Of a stretch of DNA of 64,000 nt, positions 25,402 through 62,647 are shown piece by piece (the first letter of the stretch is position 1; each line of letters begins with the position of its first letter). This DNA is from Limnochorda pilosa (GTDB lineage: Bacteria > Bacillota > Limnochordia > Limnochordales > Limnochordaceae): NCBI RefSeq assembly GCF_001544015.1, contig NZ_AP014924.1:992001-1056000 (forward strand). Direction: 5' to 3'. A program made the translations under genes and the position numbers. The notes under the pieces are model-generated. The model was not told the DNA's origin, ran no database searches, and saw nothing but the letters and a program-made list of their open reading frames with translations.

Positions 25402-25452
25402 TCCTAACTACGTCTTAAGCAGTTCCTCATATAGCCTGTGGACCGCAACATC
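25402..25452 (-). repeat. Orphan attI-like site
   Basis: The array edge TCCTAAC (25,402-25,408) is followed by about 44 bp alignable with the DNA beside the intact intI at 49,038: both share, read on the minus strand, TTGCG, ACAGG, ATATG, GAAC, CTTAAG and GTAGTTRGG at matching spacing. It lacks the arms of an attC. Interpreted as the attI of an integron that lost its integrase. Confidence 0.75.
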
Positions 25453-32939: not shown

Positions 32940-33617
32940 TTACGGACGGGGCACCAGGTCCGCGAACCAGAACCCGTCGCGGCATACGGTCTCGCCCACC
33001 TGCACGGGAATCGCCCCTGCGAACATGGGGCCTGCAAAGCAGAAGGTGTGGAACTCACCACGCTCCCCGCACGGATCGACCCCCTCCGGAAGCTCGGCCA
33101 GCACGGCCGCGTCGTAAGGGCGTCCCACCAATCGTTCCGGCAGGTGATGAGGGTCCACGGCGGTCACCACCGCCCGAAGGCCGGCGTCCAGCATGCGACG
33201 GGCCAGTCGGGGCGTCTCCGGGCGGGAGGTCCACAGAGGGAAGAGGGGCTCGATGCCTGTTCCGGCGAGCTGGCGCTCCCGGTAGGCCCGCACGTCCTCC
33301 AGGTACAGGTCCCCGAAGGCTATGTGGGTGATGCCCTCCTGCCGCAACGCGTGCAGGGCCTGGGACATCCGCTCTTCGTAGGCATCGTTGGAGCAAGGGG
33401 AGGGCAAAGGGACCGGCCAGAGGAGCAGGTTCGCAGCGGCCGCCTGGGCCTCCACCAGCTCCTGGCGCACGGCGTGCATGGAGACACGCCCCGCCACTTC
33501 GTTGACTGTGGTCAGGAGGCCTACCACTTCCGTGTCGGGCTGCCGGCGTAACACGTACAAGGCCCAGGCGCTGTCCTTGCCCGAACTCCAGGAGAGCACG
33601 ACGCGGCGATTCATCAT
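32940..33617 (-). CDS. PP-loop ATPase related to diphthine-ammonia ligase (Dph6-like)
   Basis: 225 aa from the ATG ATG at 33617. PP-loop VVLSWSSGKDSAWALYVLRR; later THIAFGDLYLEDVRAYRERQL, GIEPLFPLW and a C-terminal GVDPCGERGEFHTFCFAGPMF with the EFHT substrate motif, all typical of the bacterial adenine nucleotide alpha-hydrolase-like Dph6 group. Bacteria lack diphthamide, so the real substrate is unknown. Its first ~17 codons recur as a fragment at 50.6 kb. Confidence 0.88.
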   Translation of the reverse strand: MMNRRVVLSWSSGKDSAWALYVLRRQPDTEVVGLLTTVNEVAGRVSMHAVRQELVEAQAAAANLLLWPVPLPSPCSNDAYEERMSQALHALRQEGITHIAFGDLYLEDVRAYRERQLAGTGIEPLFPLWTSRPETPRLARRMLDAGLRAVVTAVDPHHLPERLVGRPYDAAVLAELPEGVDPCGERGEFHTFCFAGPMFAGAIPVQVGETVCRDGFWFADLVPRP

Positions 33618-48370: not shown

Positions 48371-48464
48371 GCCCAACGTCCTGCCGTATCAGCGGCGCCG
48401 ACAGCCAGCCACCGATCGAGTCTCTCCGGCCTCCTACGGCGTCCGCTGCATACGCTTGTTGGGC
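48371..48464 (-). repeat. attC site
   Basis: GCCCAAC left, GTTGGGC right; shares its inner sequence with the array 1 sites at 19,120 and 23,149. Its end doubles as the -35 of the addiction-module promoter. Confidence 0.93.
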
Positions 48465-48484
48465 GGCGCTCCGCAGCATACAAT
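48456..48484 (+). promoter_or_regulatory. Addiction-module promoter overlapping attC
   Basis: TTGTTG (48,456-48,461, inside the attC terminus), 17-nt spacer, TACAAT (48,479-48,484). It reads against the array direction into the antitoxin gene 7 nt downstream, implying a nearly leaderless transcript. Confidence 0.65.
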
Positions 48485-48490
48485 GGTGGT

Positions 48491-48844
48491 ATGATGAAGC
48501 CCAGTGACGAAGTGCTTGCCGATGCGCTCCGGCTCGATGCAAAGGCCCGGGCTGAGATCGCCGCTGAACTCCTCGCAAGCCTGGACGGCCCCCCCGATCC
48601 GGACGCCGAGTCTGCCTGGGAGGCCGAGATCCAGCGACGAGTCGCCGACATCGAGGCTTGGACCGCCGAGCTTGAGCCCTGGGAGAAGGTCAAGCGCAGG
48701 ATCGAGAGAGAAATCCTCGACCGATCACCAGGGCTCTCCGCAGCAGCAAGTCCGCCTCCGATGAGTTCATCGCAGCCGTTCGCTGGTACGAAGCACAAAA
48801 CCCGGGCCTTGGCGCCGATTCCTAAAGGGCCGTCGCGTCGGTAA
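48491..48844 (+). CDS. Addiction-module antitoxin, TIGR02574-like (cassette, reversed)
   Basis: The first ~78 residues (DEVLADALRLDAKARAEIAAELLASLDGPPDPDAESAWEAEIQRRVADIEAWTAELEPWEKVKRRIEREILDR) match the short antitoxin family paired with RelE/ParE toxins. The frame then runs 39 codons beyond the usual end into toxin DNA, a sign that the natural stop was lost by mutation. On the plus strand, opposite to the array, with its own promoter. First cassette after attI. Confidence 0.8.
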   Translation: MMKPSDEVLADALRLDAKARAEIAAELLASLDGPPDPDAESAWEAEIQRRVADIEAWTAELEPWEKVKRRIEREILDRSPGLSAAASPPPMSSSQPFAGTKHKTRALAPIPKGPSRR

Positions 48845-49026
48845 CGGCCCTGATCGAAACCCATCCCGAGATCGGCTCCCCCGTCTCTGCTGACCACCTT
48901 ACCCGCAGGGTCCTCGTCCGAGGCTTTCCCTACCAAGTCGTGTACCACCTCCGACCGGACGAGATCGTTATCGTGGCGGTTGCTCACCTGAAGCGTCGCC
49001 CGGGCTACTGGCGGAACCGGACCTGA
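48748..49026 (+). pseudogene. RelE/ParE-type toxin, frameshifted
   Basis: Reads SASDEFIAAVRWYEAQNPGLGAD, then a one-base loss at about 48,823 (GATTCCTAAAGG where GATTTCCTAAGG-like sequence is expected) puts the rest, RAVASVTALIETHPEIGSPV...RRVLVRGFPYQVVYHLRPDEIVIVAVAHLKRRPGYWRN, in another frame. No start codon is visible in the first frame either. Inactive as written. Confidence 0.78.
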
Positions 49027-49037
49027 GTTCCGAGTCC

Positions 49038-49087
49038 GCCCAACTACAGCTTAAGACGTTCTCCATATGACCTGTAGGTCGCAAGAT
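49038..49087 (-). repeat. Probable attI of the intact integron
   Basis: The first cassette ends at GCCCAAC (49,038-49,044). The following ~43 bp towards intI have no attC arms but align with the orphan site at 25,402. It lies about 140 bp beyond the 3' end of intI, not at its 5' end. Confidence 0.78.
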
Positions 49088-49224: not shown

Positions 49225-50334
49225 TTACAACGAATCCACCGGGCTACGGACGCCACGGCCGCCGCGGTTCAGGACGTGGGTGTAGATCATGGTCGTTCGC
49301 ACGTCCTTGTGGCCGAGGAGCTCCTGGACCGTCCGGATGTCGTAGCCGTCGGCCAGCAGGTGCGTGGCGAAGGAGTGACGGAACGTGTGACAGGACGCCC
49401 GCTTGGTGAGTCGGGCGCGTCGAACCGCTTGGGCCACGGCCCTCTGCACCAGGGACTCGTGCATGTGGTGACGGCCCTGTTCTCCTGTTGTTGGGTTCCT
49501 CCAACGTCTCGCCTGGGGGAAGACCCACTGCCAGCGCCAGTCGGTCGCTGCTTGAGGGTACTTGCGCGCAATGGCCTGCGGAAGGTCGACCCGACCCGAG
49601 CCCTCGCGAAGGTCCCGATCGTGGGTCGCCTTGACGGTCCGAAGGTGCCTGCGAAGGGGCTCTTTGAGCGCCTCCGGAAGCATCGTCACCCGGTCCTTCG
49701 CCCCCTTGCCGTCGCGCACGAGGATCTCGCCTCGGGCGAAGTCCATATCTTGCACCCGCAGGCCGAGGCACTCGGTCACCCGGAGCCCGGAGCCATACAT
49801 CAGGGAAGCGATGAGCCGGTAGGTTCCCTCGAGCTCGGCCAGGACCGCCCTTACTTCGTCCTTTGTGAGGACGACAGGGAGCCGGCGAGGCTTTCGGGCT
49901 CGGATCACGGACCCAAGATCCCCGGTGTGACGGCGGAGCACGTTGCGATAGAGGAAGAGCAGGGCACTGAGGGCCTGATTCTGTGTGGAAGCGCTCACCT
50001 TCTCGTGGGTGGCCAGGTGGCTTAGGAACGCGTTGATCTCTGCTTCCCCCATCTCCGCCGGATGGCGCAGGTTGTGAAAGCGGATGAACCGTCTCACCCA
50101 CAGGCGGTAGCTCTCTTCGGTCCTACGGCTGTAATGGCGTGAACGGAGCGCTTCTCTCAACTGATCAAGGAGCCTGGGCTTGGGTCTGCGGTGTTCGATA
50201 GGGTCATCACGCCGGTAGTCTCCGGTACGTGTGGTTCCGGAGTACTGGGATGCGCTGCCTGCGGCGCTCGATGGTGTCCGCCTGGACGATCCATACGGAG
50301 GTCGCTCCTTCGAACCGGAGCCTTGCTGCTTCAC
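49225..50334 (-). CDS. intI: Integron integrase IntI (tyrosine recombinase)
   Basis: 369 aa. Catalyses attI x attC recombination. Catalytic Arg185 (YGSGLRVTE), Lys213 region (GKGAKDR), His316/Arg319 ([12 protein letters not shown]), His342 (LLGHKD) and Tyr351 (MIYTH) are present. The IntI-only insert is at ~258-276 ([19 protein letters not shown]), separating it from XerCD. N-terminal SAM-like domain from ~52 ([32 protein letters not shown]). The only start is a GTG (GAGGTGGG upstream) giving a ~50-residue extension absent from typical IntI. Transcribed in the same direction as the cassettes. Confidence 0.95.
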
Positions 50335-50500
50335 CCGGACCCACCTCGCCTCTTGGGCCCCGTGGGCATGTCGGGCTCCAGGGAGAAGCGGAACCTACGT
50401 GCGTGATTCGACAGGAAGGTAGCCAATCCTCCCGGATCTCGCCATCTTCGGGGCTGATACACGACTTCGAGGAGCGCGCCGCGCCTCGACACGGGGCAAG
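50335..50500 (-). promoter_or_regulatory. intI upstream region conserved in the orphan integron
   Basis: Shares AACCTA.GTGCGTG.TTCGACAGG with 25,978-26,002. An imperfect repeat GAACC-N9-G(G/A)TTC is retained in both copies. No LexA-type box with 4-nt spacing was found. Confidence 0.4.
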
Positions 50501-50574: not shown

Positions 50575-50645
50575 TGCAGCTCGTACGTGCCCAGGCGCTG
50601 TCCTTGGCGGAGCTCCAGGAGAGCAGCACACGGCGCACCATCGCG
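50575..50645 (-). pseudogene. Dph6-like PP-loop gene, 5' fragment
   Basis: Minus strand reads VRRVLLSWSSAKDSAWARTS, matching the first residues of the complete PP-loop protein at 33.6 kb (RRVVLSWSSGKDSAWALYV). It ends after about 20 codons. The lysine-glycine step is changed, and nothing of the rest of the gene is found. Confidence 0.6.
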
Positions 50646-57612: not shown

Positions 57613-57932
57613 TCACGCCATCCGGTTCCGTGCGCCCGAGACCTCCTCGCGCAGGTGCTGCCAGATGCGCACGAAGAGCTCCGCGGCCGCGGGGTCGGCA
57701 CGGAGCCCTTCCACGCTTCGGGGTCGCGGCAAGGGCACGGGCATGTCCTCGGCCACCCTTCCGGGGCGGGCGGTCATCAGCACCAGGCGATCGCCCAGGA
57801 GGATGGCCTCGTCGATGCTGTGGGTGACGTAGACCACGGTGCGGCGGTTCTCCCCCCAGATCCGCAGGAGCTCCTCCTGGAGCAGGAACGTGTTCTGCTC
57901 GTCCAGGGCCGAGAAGGGTTCGTCCATGAGCC
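57613..57932 (-). pseudogene. ABC transporter ATPase (SsuB/TauB-like), C-terminal fragment
   Basis: Begins inside Walker B (LMDEPFSALDEQNTFLLQEELLRIWGENRRTVVYVTHSIDEAILLGDRLVLMTARPG) and runs to a natural stop. Walker A and the signature are missing, replaced by an IS110 fragment. Partner of the following binding protein. Confidence 0.85.
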
Positions 57933-58298
57933 GTGTCCTTCGGGTCCGTCTTGCTCGGGCTGTTGTCACGGTCCTCCTTGTGACGCTTGGTGATTATCGG
58001 GTTGACCAGCACCACGGTGTAGCCCCTGCCGACCAGCCAGTAGGCCAGCGGCTTCCAGTAGTGGCCGGTGGGCTCCATCCCGATGATCACCCTCTTCGCG
58101 CCGATTTCTGCTTGCCGGCGCAGGAGCCGGCTCTCCAGGCGGCGAAACCCTTCGTCGCCGTTGTGGAACTTGAACGGCTCCTCGACGGTTCGCCCCACCT
58201 GATCGATGATGCGTGCGTAGTGGGTCTTCTTGGCCACCTCCACCGCCACGATCAGGGTGTTGGAACGAACGAGCGTGATCTTCTCATCGGTTTTCACT
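57933..58298 (-). pseudogene. IS110-family transposase, N-terminal fragment
   Basis: KTDEKITLVRSNTLIVAVEVAKKTHYARIIDQ (first Asp of DEDD replaced in this position by Glu), VIIGMEPTGHYWKPLAYWL, VNPIITKRHKEDRDNSPSKTDPKD are the IS110 RuvC-like half. It is cut right after TDPKD and fused out of frame context to the ATPase fragment. The C-terminal Tnp_20 domain is absent. Confidence 0.85.
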
Positions 58299-58379
58299 GT
58301 GAGGGCCTCCCGGTGCTGGTTTGGCTGTCGCTTCCAGATTAGCCGGTGGGTCCTCACTTCTTCAACTTCCCCCATCAAA

Positions 58380-58629
58380 CCTCACAGGACTGCTCGGGTA
58401 CGTCGAGAACACCGTGCCTGACGATGGCCCCATCGCGGCCATGAAGCGCTTCCACCGAACCTACCTCGACGGGTACATGCAGCGGGTGCCAGAGGGATGG
58501 GCCGAGTACCAGCGGTGGCTGCCGATCGTGGCCGCTGCCCGGCTGTCCGATGGCATCGTGGAGCAGCAGGAGTGGCTTCTCGAGCAGGTCCGCTCAGGAT
58601 TGGCCGCCTCGGAGCCCCCGCCTGCGTGA
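58380..58629 (+). pseudogene. C-terminal fragment of an unidentified enzyme
   Basis: Plus-strand frame LLGYVENTVPDDGPIAAMKRFHRTYLDGYMQRVPEGWAEYQRWLPIVAAARLSDGIVEQQEWLLEQVRSGL. Helical, with the look of the last ~80 residues of an aminoglycoside-phosphotransferase-like protein. The 5' end was removed where the IS110 remnant begins. Confidence 0.45.
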
Positions 58630-59042
58630 CCCGATAGCGGCCAGCCCCGAACCGGAGGGCCTGAGTGAGCCGATCCTCCTCGCTGACAACCTGGTGAGAG
58701 GAGAGCAGCCATGATACGATCCATGGTCGGATGTAGGGAGGAACGGCTACTCTCCCGTCGAATTCTAAAAGCTTATGAGATTAGCTGCTCCGCTCCCTGG
58801 GATAGGGACTTGCCATGCCGATGGGGTCCAAGAGGCGATTGATCCAACCAGGCGATAGACCCCGTGGACCATACAGCCACAGCGCCGGTCACAACTCGAG
58901 CAACAACCGCAGAGACGACCCCAACAAGAACCAAGGCGACGAGCCCAGGCTTGATCGGCTGGGATGGGCGCTGCCTTCTCGTCACTACAGGTCGGACCGA
59001 AGAGAGCAACGGGCAGGCGTATCAGTCTTAAGGAGTTCAGAG
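58630..59042. other. Spacer upstream of the methyltransferase
   Basis: No gene or clear repeat. TAAAAGCTTATGAGATTAG around 58,768 is locally AT-rich. Confidence 0.4.
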
Positions 59043-59819
59043 ATGCGTCCGATGAACTTCTTTCGATACAATAGTGAAGCGGCACGCTATGCCCGGTTTC
59101 GACCCTACTTTCACCCGATGGTGGTGGAGCGTGTTCGAAAGCGGCTAGAACTCGACGAGCCGCTGGAGCATGCCTTGGATGTAGGGTGTGGGACCGGACA
59201 ATCTGCTGTGGCCTTGAAGCCGATCGCACGATCCATCACAGGCGTCGATAGCTCGCGTTCCATGCTTGAGGAGGCGCTGTCCGACGAGTGCGTTCGGTAC
59301 GTGGAAGCTCCGGCGGAGGACCTTCCATTTCGCGACGAGTCATATGAGCTGGTTACGGTCTCCTTGGCCCTCCACTGGTTCGAGCGTGCCAAATTCTTGT
59401 TCGAGGCAGCCCGGGTTCTCAAGAACAACGGCTGGCTAGTGATCTACGACAACTGGTTCAGCGGCGTGATGAGAGAGAACCCAAAGTTCCTGGGGTGGGT
59501 GAAAGAGGTTTACCTTCACCGGTATCCAGCTCCGCCACGCGACTCCCGTCCGATTGACGCCGAGGAGGCGGGTAAGTACGGCTTCCGACTTCTGGAGGAC
59601 GAGAGGTACGAAAATGAGGTTGCATTCACAGTAGAGGAATTGGCGGCTTATCTCAGCACTCAAACGAATGTGGTTGGTGCCGTGGAGGCAGGCTCGGAGG
59701 CGCTGGAGTCCGTGCTCGACTGGTTGATGGATCAACTTCGGCCGATGTTTCCGAGAGCTTCGGCCACGTTTGTGTTTCGGGGACGGATATGGTACTTGCA
59801 GAAATCTGGATCATCGTAG
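59043..59819 (+). CDS. Class I SAM-dependent methyltransferase
   Basis: 258 aa; ATG 8 nt after AAGGAG. Motif I HALDVGCGTGQSAVAL, motif II VDSSRSMLEEA, post-I VRYVEAPAEDLPFRDESYELVTVSLALHWFERAKF, then EAARVLKNNGWLVIYDNW: the Methyltransf_11 (UbiE/Tam-like) pattern. Substrate unknown. A decayed attC follows on the same strand, so it may be an old cassette gene. Confidence 0.88.
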   Translation: MRPMNFFRYNSEAARYARFRPYFHPMVVERVRKRLELDEPLEHALDVGCGTGQSAVALKPIARSITGVDSSRSMLEEALSDECVRYVEAPAEDLPFRDESYELVTVSLALHWFERAKFLFEAARVLKNNGWLVIYDNWFSGVMRENPKFLGWVKEVYLHRYPAPPRDSRPIDAEEAGKYGFRLLEDERYENEVAFTVEELAAYLSTQTNVVGAVEAGSEALESVLDWLMDQLRPMFPRASATFVFRGRIWYLQKSGSS

Positions 59820-59837: not shown

Positions 59838-59953
59838 GCCTGACAAGCGTATTCACTGGACGCGCAGAAGACTGGGTGCCCGGGTCGCGGCCCGGTGTCG
59901 CGCCGCCAGTACGCCGGGCCGCTGGATGGCCAAGGACATGAGCGAGGTTAGGG
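59838..59953 (+). repeat. Degenerate attC, plus-strand orientation
   Basis: GCCTGACAAGCGTATTCACT and GGACGCGC match the AAGCGTATGCAGCGGACGCC half of local attC sites; GGGCCGCTGGATGG and GTTAGGG (59,947-59,953) are the other half. Follows the methyltransferase gene. Confidence 0.55.
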
Positions 59954-60028
59954 ATTGACCGCCACCGCGCAGCCGCGAGGGCGTTGGCTGTATGAACGTC
60001 ATTGGAAAGGCGTGGAGGTTTGACGGAC

Positions 60029-60667
60029 ATGTACGTTCCCAAGCGTTTTGCCGAGACACGGCTGGAGGCCTTACAGGAACTCATTGGCTCATGTCCCTTC
60101 GGGACGTTGATTACGATGACGACACAAGGGCTCGAGGCAAACCACATTCCTTTTGTACTGAAGGCCGACCCTGGTCCATACGGGGCTTTGCAAGGTCATG
60201 TTGCGCAAGCGAATTCTCAGTGGAAGGACTTCGACCCTGACGTGGAAGCCCTAGTCGTATTTCAAGGTCCGCAGGCGTACATTTCGCCTTCATGGTATCC
60301 GACAATACAAGAGACCGGCAAGGTCGTCCCGACCTGGAACTACATGGTCGTTCACGCGTATGGCAAGCTCCGGGTCATACAGGATCAGGATTGGCTCCAG
60401 AGACACGTCGAAGAGCTGACAGATCAACAGGAACGGAGACGCGAGGAGCCGTGGCACGTCTCTGACGCACCACCCGAGTTCACGACGAAGTTGATGCATG
60501 CCATCGTTGGAGTTGAGATCCACGTGTCACGGCTCGTGGGCAAGTGGAAGCTTGGTCAGAATCGGTCGATCGAGGATCAGATGGGCCTGATGAAGGGCTT
60601 GAGTATGGAAGATGACGCGGATGCGCTGTCCATGGCTCGGTATTTGAGAGAGCACGAGCGGGGTTGA
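60029..60667 (+). CDS. FMN-binding PaiB-family protein
   Basis: 212 aa; ATG at 60029 after GTGGAGG. MYVPKRFAETRLEALQELIGSCPFGTLIT, LEANHIPFVL, GALQGHVAQANSQWKDF, VFQGPQAYISPSWYPTIQETGKVVPTWNYMVVHAYGKLRV, and a C-terminal GVEIHVSRLVGKWKLGQNR are all PaiB hallmarks. In Bacillus PaiB represses sporulation and protease genes; here no paiA is adjacent. Confidence 0.92.
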   Translation: MYVPKRFAETRLEALQELIGSCPFGTLITMTTQGLEANHIPFVLKADPGPYGALQGHVAQANSQWKDFDPDVEALVVFQGPQAYISPSWYPTIQETGKVVPTWNYMVVHAYGKLRVIQDQDWLQRHVEELTDQQERRREEPWHVSDAPPEFTTKLMHAIVGVEIHVSRLVGKWKLGQNRSIEDQMGLMKGLSMEDDADALSMARYLREHERG

Positions 60668-60687
60668 GTAGCTAACGACGCATCGGC

Positions 60688-60780
60688 AGCCAACAGGCGC
60701 ATCCGCGGACGCACGTCGATGGCGAGGTGCTTCGGGCCGTGAGCCGCAAGGGGCGCCGCTGATACGTGGATGCCTTACGC
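60688..60780 (+). repeat. Degenerate attC, plus-strand orientation
   Basis: AGCCAACAGGCGCATCCGCG with GGACGC, then GGGGCGCCGCTGATACGTGG and CCTTACGC, in the order of a plus-strand attC. It follows the PaiB-like gene. Confidence 0.55.
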
Positions 60781-60846
60781 GGGGACGGGCGTGCTTCACG
60801 CTCCGATCCAACACAGGCCGTTGGGCCGAGGAAGGTGTAATCTCTG

Positions 60847-61476
60847 ATGAACGATCACGAGATCGAACAGACTCCAGCGGTGCTGGAAGCCATCCTTCAT
60901 GACACCCGGCGGATCGGGTTTACAAGGGGTTCCGAGCCACAGACCGGCACACTGCTGAGGACCTTGGCGGCGTCAAAGCCCGGCGGGCGTTTCCTGAAAC
61001 TCGGCACCGGCACCGGCCTGGGTACGGCATGGCTGCTCTCAGGCATGGATGCCACTGCCCGGCTCGACTCTGTCGACAACGATCCGACGGTGGTAGAAGT
61101 GGCTCGCCGCCACTTGGGACATGATCCACGCGTGAGGTTTCATATCGCTGACGGCGGGGATTCTCTCGCCCAACTTCCGCCATCACAATTCGACTTCATG
61201 TACGCTGATACGTGGCCTGGTGAGTTCACACACCTGGATCTTGCTCTTTCGCTGCTCCGGGTCGGGGGCATTTACTTCGTCGACGACCTCTTTCCACAAC
61301 CTTCTTGGCCGGAAGGGCCTGCGCCCAAGGTTGGGGCTTTGATCTCTGAACTTGTGAAGAGGCGGGATTTCATCGCCACCAAACTTGCATGGGCATCAGG
61401 TCTCATGATTCTCGCTAGAGTCAACGCGCCTAACACAGACATGCAGCGAATGCGGCATACGACGCGGCGCCGCTGA
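60847..61476 (+). CDS. O-methyltransferase-like SAM enzyme
   Basis: 209 aa. GGRFLKLGTGTGLGTAWLLSGMDATARLDSVDNDPTVVEVARRHLGHDPRVRFHIADGGDSLAQLPPSQFDFMYADTWPGEF resembles the caffeoyl-CoA/catechol O-methyltransferase family, with DDLFPQ late. Motif I has LGTGTG instead of the usual (E/D)xGxGxG, lacking the first acid. The last ~14 codons (MQRMRHTTRRR) are read from a decayed attC. Confidence 0.82.
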   Translation: MNDHEIEQTPAVLEAILHDTRRIGFTRGSEPQTGTLLRTLAASKPGGRFLKLGTGTGLGTAWLLSGMDATARLDSVDNDPTVVEVARRHLGHDPRVRFHIADGGDSLAQLPPSQFDFMYADTWPGEFTHLDLALSLLRVGGIYFVDDLFPQPSWPEGPAPKVGALISELVKRRDFIATKLAWASGLMILARVNAPNTDMQRMRHTTRRR

Positions 61477-61491
61477 TGCCCGATGTTTGCT
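61428..61491 (+). repeat. Degenerate attC, plus-strand orientation
   Basis: GCCTAAC (61,428-61,434), ACATGCAGCGAATGC, CGGCGCCGCTGATG, ending GTTTGCT (61,485-61,491). The clearest of the plus-strand sites. Confidence 0.6.
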
Positions 61492-61554
61492 GTTCGCTGC
61501 TTTCGTCGTGTCAGCCACTGCGTTCACTAGGACCGAGGAGATGGAGGGACGGGC

Positions 61555-62145
61555 ATGTTCGCAGATATGCCAGAGGATGTACGTCGACGGATGGCCTACC
61601 TTGAGGAGATAGATGCCCGAGACCGCGATGACGGGACACCGCGGCTGGAACGTCTCCGCCAGGTTCCACCAGAGACGGGACAATTCATCGCGCTGCTATC
61701 ATTGACCGCTCCAGCTGGGCGGCACATCGAGATCGGTACGAGTGCTGGATACTCGACGCTTTGGCTGGCTCTGGCATGTCGTCGACTGGGTCGCCGGATC
61801 ACGACTTACGAGATACTCCCTGAGAAGGTCCGCTTAGCAAAGGAGACCTTCGAGAGAACAGGGCTCAGCGATGTCATTGAGTTGGTCGAAGGCGATGCGA
61901 GAGACCATATTCATGGTGTCTCTGGAATATCGTTCTGCTTCTTGGATGCGGAGAAGGAGGTCTATAAGGACTGCTATGATCTCGTTGTCCCTAGAATGGT
62001 TTCTGGTGGCCTTCTGGTTGCCGACAACGCGATCAACCACCGAGACGCCCTGCAAGCCATGATTGAGGAAGCACTGGCCGACCCAAGGGTGGACGCCATG
62101 GTTGTCCCCGTGGGCAAAGGAGAGTTGGTCTGTCGGAAGAGATGA
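61555..62145 (+). CDS. O-methyltransferase (family 3-like)
   Basis: 196 aa, GGAGGGACGGGC before the [50 protein letters not shown] (motif I), [65 protein letters not shown] (metal-site Asp/Asn). Matches the divalent-metal O-methyltransferase family; substrate unknown. Confidence 0.88.
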
Positions 62146-62152
62146 GTCTGGC

Positions 62153-62203
62153 CGTTGACGTGTGTATATGCCGGCAATCGGCGCCGCTGATAGGATGCTG
62201 GGC
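62153..62203 (+). repeat. Degenerate attC, plus-strand orientation
   Basis: GTTGACGTGTGTATATGCCG followed by TCGGCGCCGCTGATAGG and GCTGGGC. Weakest of the four sites. Confidence 0.45.
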
Positions 62204-62221: not shown

Positions 62222-62647
62222 GTGGAGATTCGCCCGTTTGAACCCACGGATGAAGCTGCTGTGATCGCTCTCTGGGAGCGTTGCGAACTGACCCGGCCGT
62301 GGAATGATCCCAGGAAAGATATCCGGCGCAAGCTCCACGTGTGCGCTGAACTCTTCCTGGTTGGAGAACGAGATGGGAAGATCATCGCCACTGTAATGGT
62401 CGGTTATGAGGGACATCGCGGTTGGATCAACTACCTGGCTGTCGCGCCAGAACACCAGCGTCAAGGGTTCGGACGGATGATGATGGAGGAAGCGGAGCGC
62501 CTGCTAGAAAGAGAGCGGTGCCCTAAGGTCAACCTTCAAGTCCGGGCCGAAAACCAAGCGGCAATTGAGTTTTACCAAAGGCTCGGGTATTCCGTCGACA
62601 GGGTCATCAGTATGGGAAAGCGACTCGAAAATGACCACGTCAGGTGA
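62222..62647 (+). CDS. GNAT family acetyltransferase, YpeA-like
   Basis: 141 aa; GTG after GGAGGTG. IRPFEPTDEAAVIALWERCELTRPWNDPRKDI, LFLVGERDGKIIATVMVGYEGHRGWINYLAVAPEHQRQGFGRMMMEEAERLLERERCPKVNLQVRAENQAAIEFYQRLGYSVDRVISMGKRL matches the YpeA group almost throughout. Substrate unknown. Confidence 0.92.
   Translation: MEIRPFEPTDEAAVIALWERCELTRPWNDPRKDIRRKLHVCAELFLVGERDGKIIATVMVGYEGHRGWINYLAVAPEHQRQGFGRMMMEEAERLLERERCPKVNLQVRAENQAAIEFYQRLGYSVDRVISMGKRLENDHVR

Follow-up and report, generated by a model that had tools for sequence, protein, structure and literature searches.

The plus strand of the window, by which we mean the whole 64,000-nucleotide stretch of Limnochorda pilosa DNA analysed here (C1:992,001-1,056,000, where C1 is the single contig of a genome of 3,817,036 bases), very probably carries a degraded sedentary integron between 58.7 and 62.2 kb, probably extending to 62.65 kb, that belongs to the lineage of the intact integron in the same window. 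The unit appears to comprise an intI stub, a probable attI end and four fixed cassettes, probably five (Table 1). The original prediction saw the cassettes; it missed the head of the array, the 5' relic of intI and the probable attI end, which strengthens the case.

Table 1. Features of the plus-strand unit, its sister units and the inversion edge (window coordinates unless preceded by C1)
Feature	Position	Strand	Evidence
intI relic: promoter/leader and ~65 N-terminal codons, with internal gaps	58736..59010	+	Alignment, blastn, tblastn
Probable remnant of attI 3' end, CAGGCGTATCAGTCTTAAGGAGTT	59014..59037	+	Resembles attI ends of sister units
Gene 1, class I SAM methyltransferase (Methyltransf_11)	59043..59819	+	Pfam 2.9e-22; GC3 0.66
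Decayed attC 1	59838..59927	+	CM 30.3 bits, genome-wide E 1.1e-4; R'' GCCTGAC, R' GCTGGAT
Gene 2, PaiB-like FMN-binding protein (FMN_bind_2)	60029..60667	+	PF04299 1.4e-66
Decayed attC 2	60688..60790	+	CM 23.3 bits, genome-wide E 0.0145; HMM E 6.4e-6
Gene 3, methyltransferase (Methyltransf_24)	60847..61476	+	Pfam 4e-10
Decayed, shortened attC 3	61428..61491	+	CM 19.6 bits; exact GGCGCCGCTGAT; overlaps end of gene 3
Gene 4, O-methyltransferase (Methyltransf_3)	61555..62145	+	Pfam 8.3e-22
attC 4 fragment, chiefly 3' core	62148..62203	+	HMM E 0.012; exact GGCGCCGCTGATA; CM just 9.2 bits (62,169)
Probable fifth cassette gene, GNAT acetyltransferase	62222..62647	+	NF002959 191 bits; GC3 0.62
Intact sister integron integrase intI	49225..50334	minus	TIGR02249 481.8 bits, cut-off 265; reference for intI relic
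Second intI 5' relic	26,041-25,677	minus	z 54; ahead of 12.5-24.6 kb array
attI end of 25.7 kb relic unit	25406-25419	minus	attI end motif
Frameshifted second intI and attI	C1:953.3-954.7 kb (13306-14740 of C1:940000-956000)	minus	83% identical to intact intI-attI
Further attC cluster without recognised intI	7408-13975 of C1:3538000-3557000	+	attC sites
5' part of split IS110, right edge of inversion	57931..58395	minus	97% identical to intact IS110 at C1:982.2 kb

An intact sister integron in the window

The minus strand of the window harbours a sedentary integron that consists of an integron integrase and 23 good attC sites at 12.5-48.5 kb. Throughout this intact integron (11-50 kb) intI and the cassettes share one orientation, an atypical layout that has also been reported in Treponema (PMC3607928). 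The consensus structure of the minus-strand attC sites has unpaired bases, as expected of attC, at alignment columns 16 and 23, and two of its pairs show compensatory changes; an Rfam scan of the whole window at the gathering cut-off returned zero matches. A covariance model (CM) located further attC clusters in the genome at C1:946-953, 2,438.7 (a single site) and 3,545-3,552 kb. Upstream of the intact intI, a fragment at 50589-50635 (-) matches 33562-33608 (-) over 47 nt with 87% identity and resembles the start of an ATP-pyrophosphatase-like gene at 33.6 kb. A short ATG frame at 50334-50370 (-) overlaps the start of intI, and a similar ATG is retained in both the frameshifted intI copy and the 58.8 kb relic.

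Four attC-like sites on the plus strand

According to the original prediction, the sequences that follow the four plus-strand genes match the attC family of the minus-strand array. A nucleotide profile HMM, for which the window's minus-strand attC sites formed the only training set, ranked three of these sites directly below the array sites, at + 60,688-60,779 (E 6.4e-6), + 59,838-59,927 (2.6e-4) and + 62,148-62,203 (0.012), and placed site 3 lower in the list (+ 61,444-61,490, E 1.5). The CM bit scores of the four sites (Table 1) were obtained with full scoring, and the genome-wide E-values derive from 150 scored candidates of 11,019, site 3 not being among the matches listed. Across the genomes of eight relatives (~23 Mb) the best background score was 20.6 bits, which sites 1 and 2 exceed and to which site 3 comes close; the comparison with an attC model that had been proposed as a check thus came out in favour of the sites. 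Taken alone, site 3 would not stand out genome-wide, and by the CM site 4 scores no better than chance (E 4.0). Membership of the family is therefore supported by the HMM ranks and, for sites 1-3, by the CM, but the CM does not extend it to site 4, which may be regarded as a weak attC site on the strength of the HMM, an exact 12-mer core and its position.

The motif said to recur at three of the four sites does so: GGCGCCGCTGAT is present as an exact match at + 60,752, 61,466 and 62,180, and when up to one mismatch is allowed it has 28 matches in the window versus 1.0 expected by chance. Each site starts at most 20 nt past the preceding stop codon or, in one case, overlaps the gene by 49 nt. 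Chance does not account for three such sites on the same strand in the space of 1.7 kb, every one of them at a gene end, and sites 1-3 are above chance. As in an integron, one same-strand attC follows each cassette gene, three of these being strong to moderate and one a fragment, and with the lineage-specific model at least two attC sites without an integrase are found, as in a CALIN. A search reaching 10 kb past the downstream end of the window found no more attC sites.

Loss of the hairpins and R' boxes

Single-strand folding of the four sites, on both strands, gave z values from -0.40 to +0.83, no better than shuffles, compared with -3.1 and -2.4 for two intact attC controls; folding, which had been put forward as a means of recognising the sites, therefore does not single them out. 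None of the four forms the stable bottom-strand hairpin, with extrahelical bases and GTTRRRY, that is associated with a functional integron. The R' boxes deviate from GTTRRRY (GCTGGAT and GTTTGCT) and site 2 has no clear R'. As folding has been lost and the R' boxes are altered, the four attC sites are probably dead, and the cassettes would be fixed and no longer excisable.

It could be argued that the unit is a still usable CALIN whose cassettes continue to be shuffled by the IntI of the intact integron 9 kb away. The genome does contain an intact intI, site 1 retains the R'' box GCCTGAC, and site 3 retains GCCTAAC together with a hairpin-like bottom-strand fold. The deviant R' boxes, folding scores near zero and the reduction of site 4 to a fragment, however, make continued shuffling highly improbable.

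The cassette genes

The four small genes had been described as two methyltransferases, a PaiB-like gene and an O-methyltransferase, with which the Pfam assignments agree (Table 1), except that the start of gene 1 has been moved. The methyltransferase ORF called from 58,815 reads through the intI relic, and the ATG at 59,043 is likely to be the gene's own start. All four reading frames are intact. The GC3 of the plus-strand cassette genes (0.60-0.66) contrasts with that of host genes (0.92-0.95); a cassette of the main array has a value of 0.66. On the basis of its cassette-like GC3 the GNAT gene is probably a fifth cassette, and no attC was recognised after it. The cyclase and ArsN1-like genes that lie past the GNAT gene (GC3 0.81-0.82) are probably not cassettes.

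Among 40 relatives no homologues were found of PaiB at 1e-10 or of gene 1 at 1e-20, and genes 3 and 4 matched only distant methyltransferases (27-44% identity). The search of these genomes yielded no convincing orthologues of genes 1-4, whose DNA gave zero matches to the relatives. Gene order, the second check that had been suggested, gave the expected outcome, as the cassette genes show no conserved synteny in the 40 relatives.

An intI relic and a probable attI end head the array

The segment at 58,736-59,010 (+) locally aligns with intI at minus 50,433-50,107, with a z of 19 over dinucleotide shuffles, which served as the null since one drawn from window segments is contaminated by the second relic at 25.7-26.0 kb. 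Within the segment, 58,942-59,010 is 76% identical to intI (blastn, genome-wide E 9e-6), and in a tblastn search IntI residues 13-68 matched the relic in one frame with 40% identity (E 0.003). The homology to intI stops at 59,010, and a search of the plus-strand unit for an integrase domain found none; the integron integrase is thus represented solely by a 5' relic, and the unit lacks the complete intI of a functional integron.

Immediately after the relic, the sequence at 59,014-59,037 is probably the remnant of an attI end. Besides this plus-strand site, the pattern CTTAAGN{0,5}AGTT turns up at just two places in the window, the attI ends of two other units, with 0.03 occurrences expected; when compared with the three attI ends the remnant, which is short and was aligned with permissive gaps, is equalled in score by 0.25% of window positions. 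Because the intI relic, the attI-like end and the first gene at 59,043 adjoin, the plus-strand unit appears to have the order of its sister units with about 1 kb deleted.

These features bear on whether the four genes are an ordinary acquired methyltransferase/PaiB operon in which the attC-like sequences arose by chance or are unrelated repeats. Such an operon would fit plain metabolic genes that all run in one direction, and sites that fold no better than shuffles. It is hard to reconcile, however, with the attC scores and ranks, the presence of one site per gene, the absence of synteny and an intI stub heading the array, and we consider its likelihood very slight indeed. The original proposal that the genes are old, fixed cassettes is instead reinforced by the intI relic, the probable attI end, the foreign GC3 and the decayed sites.

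Sister units at different stages of decay

Four integron units can be distinguished, of which one is intact, one is frameshifted and two have 5' stubs. The frameshifted intI is followed by approximately nine attC sites. The attC cluster at about 3,545 kb was searched for an intI relic, and none was found. The antitoxin/toxin-like cassette at window 48430-49047 has an 85% copy in that cluster, as its last cassette. Descent of the 25.7 kb and 58.8 kb stubs from a shared truncated ancestor found no support, as their mutual similarity (z 2.3) is inside the shuffle range.

The similarity to intI in the 25.7 kb and 58.8 kb relics stops within ~20 nt of the same point. It may be speculated that the units form a graded series of integron death within one lineage, running from intact through frameshifted and a stub with good sites to a stub with dead sites, and that the cutting of two intI genes near the same N-terminal position, with the attI end kept, reflects repeated, perhaps IntI-driven, self-deletion of intI, although we regard this proposal as unlikely.

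Orientation of the unit reflects a 111-kb inversion

In a draft genome of the same genus the ABC permease-ATPase-substrate operon is contiguous, whereas in L. pilosa it is split between a 5' part at C1:937,114-938,397 (+) and the 3' part of the ATPase gene at 1,049,641-1,049,931 (-). An IS110 element is similarly divided: the 3' portion is found at C1:938.4 kb, just past the ATPase 5' part, and the 5' portion, at window 57,931-58,395, adjoins the ATPase 3' part, such that the two joints are reciprocal. Comparison with this one draft genome indicates that a reciprocal inversion of ~111 kb split both IS110 and the ABC ATPase gene. When the inversion is undone all four units share a strand, with the intact unit first, followed by a stub, the frameshifted unit and the plus-strand unit (58.7 kb); the plus-strand unit is thus opposite to its sisters because ~111 kb has been inverted. 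The description of a third array on the opposite strand was correct as to orientation, but the strand is a secondary consequence of the inversion and the genome contains more than three units.

That the unit is instead a piece of the main array moved by rearrangement, accompanied by a stray duplicate of the 5' region of intI, is scarcely credible: an end of the 111-kb inversion does adjoin it, but the unit retains intI stub, attI end and cassettes in that order, and its sites and stub are far more diverged than those of its sisters, whereas the joint of the inversion has an IS110 that still shares 92-97% identity with the intact copy, so that the unit must have been separate before the inversion.

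Discussion

In the reading that we favour, a degraded integron, the original layout would have been that of the intact integron, in which promoter, intI, attI and cassettes follow one another on a single strand. A deletion of ~1 kb removed intI from approximately codon 77 onwards, reaching almost to the crossover point of attI, and left the 5' stub seen today joined to what is probably the attI end. The attC sites have lost their hairpins and R' boxes, through which excision would have been lost and the cassettes fixed. The intact frames suggest that the genes were kept as ordinary accessory genes, and perhaps were useful. Later, reciprocal recombination involving IS110 and the ABC ATPase gene inverted the ~111 kb that holds the three sister units.

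Like a CALIN (IntegronFinder 2.0, PMC9024848), the plus-strand unit consists of an attC cluster, has cassette-like genes and lacks a functional integrase. In contrast with a CALIN it has kept the 5' stub of intI and, probably, an attI end, and decay has gone so far that the sites have been shown to be detectable only with a lineage-specific model; a generic attC search would probably find no more than one or two of the four. The Treponema phagedenis remnant (PMC3607928) has similarly lost intI, leaving attC sites and cassettes, but there intI is reported to be absent whereas the L. pilosa unit keeps a stub beside intact and frameshifted sisters. About one-third of intI genes are pseudogenes and one-fifth of carriers have more than one intI (Nemergut et al. 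2008, PMC2426708); the relic described here differs from such pseudogenes in that it reflects a large internal deletion and not a stop or frameshift, and that decay of the attC sites is also visible. A complete integron, the only one in Firmicutes, has been described in Limnochorda pilosa HC45 (PMC9024848), probably from the present genome, and the passage concerned mentions the complete integron and not the plus-strand remnant. Degraded integrons and CALINs are already known, and the novelty of the unit is modest.

Integron decay is usually inferred from attC clusters that lack an integrase. In L. pilosa several stages of decay and an intact reference are found in one chromosome, which allows a direct comparison of the steps of loss, in which the integrase is broken, the hairpins are lost and the genes are kept. 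The recovery of sites scoring 20-30 bits with a lineage-specific model suggests that generic attC searches undercount old cassettes.
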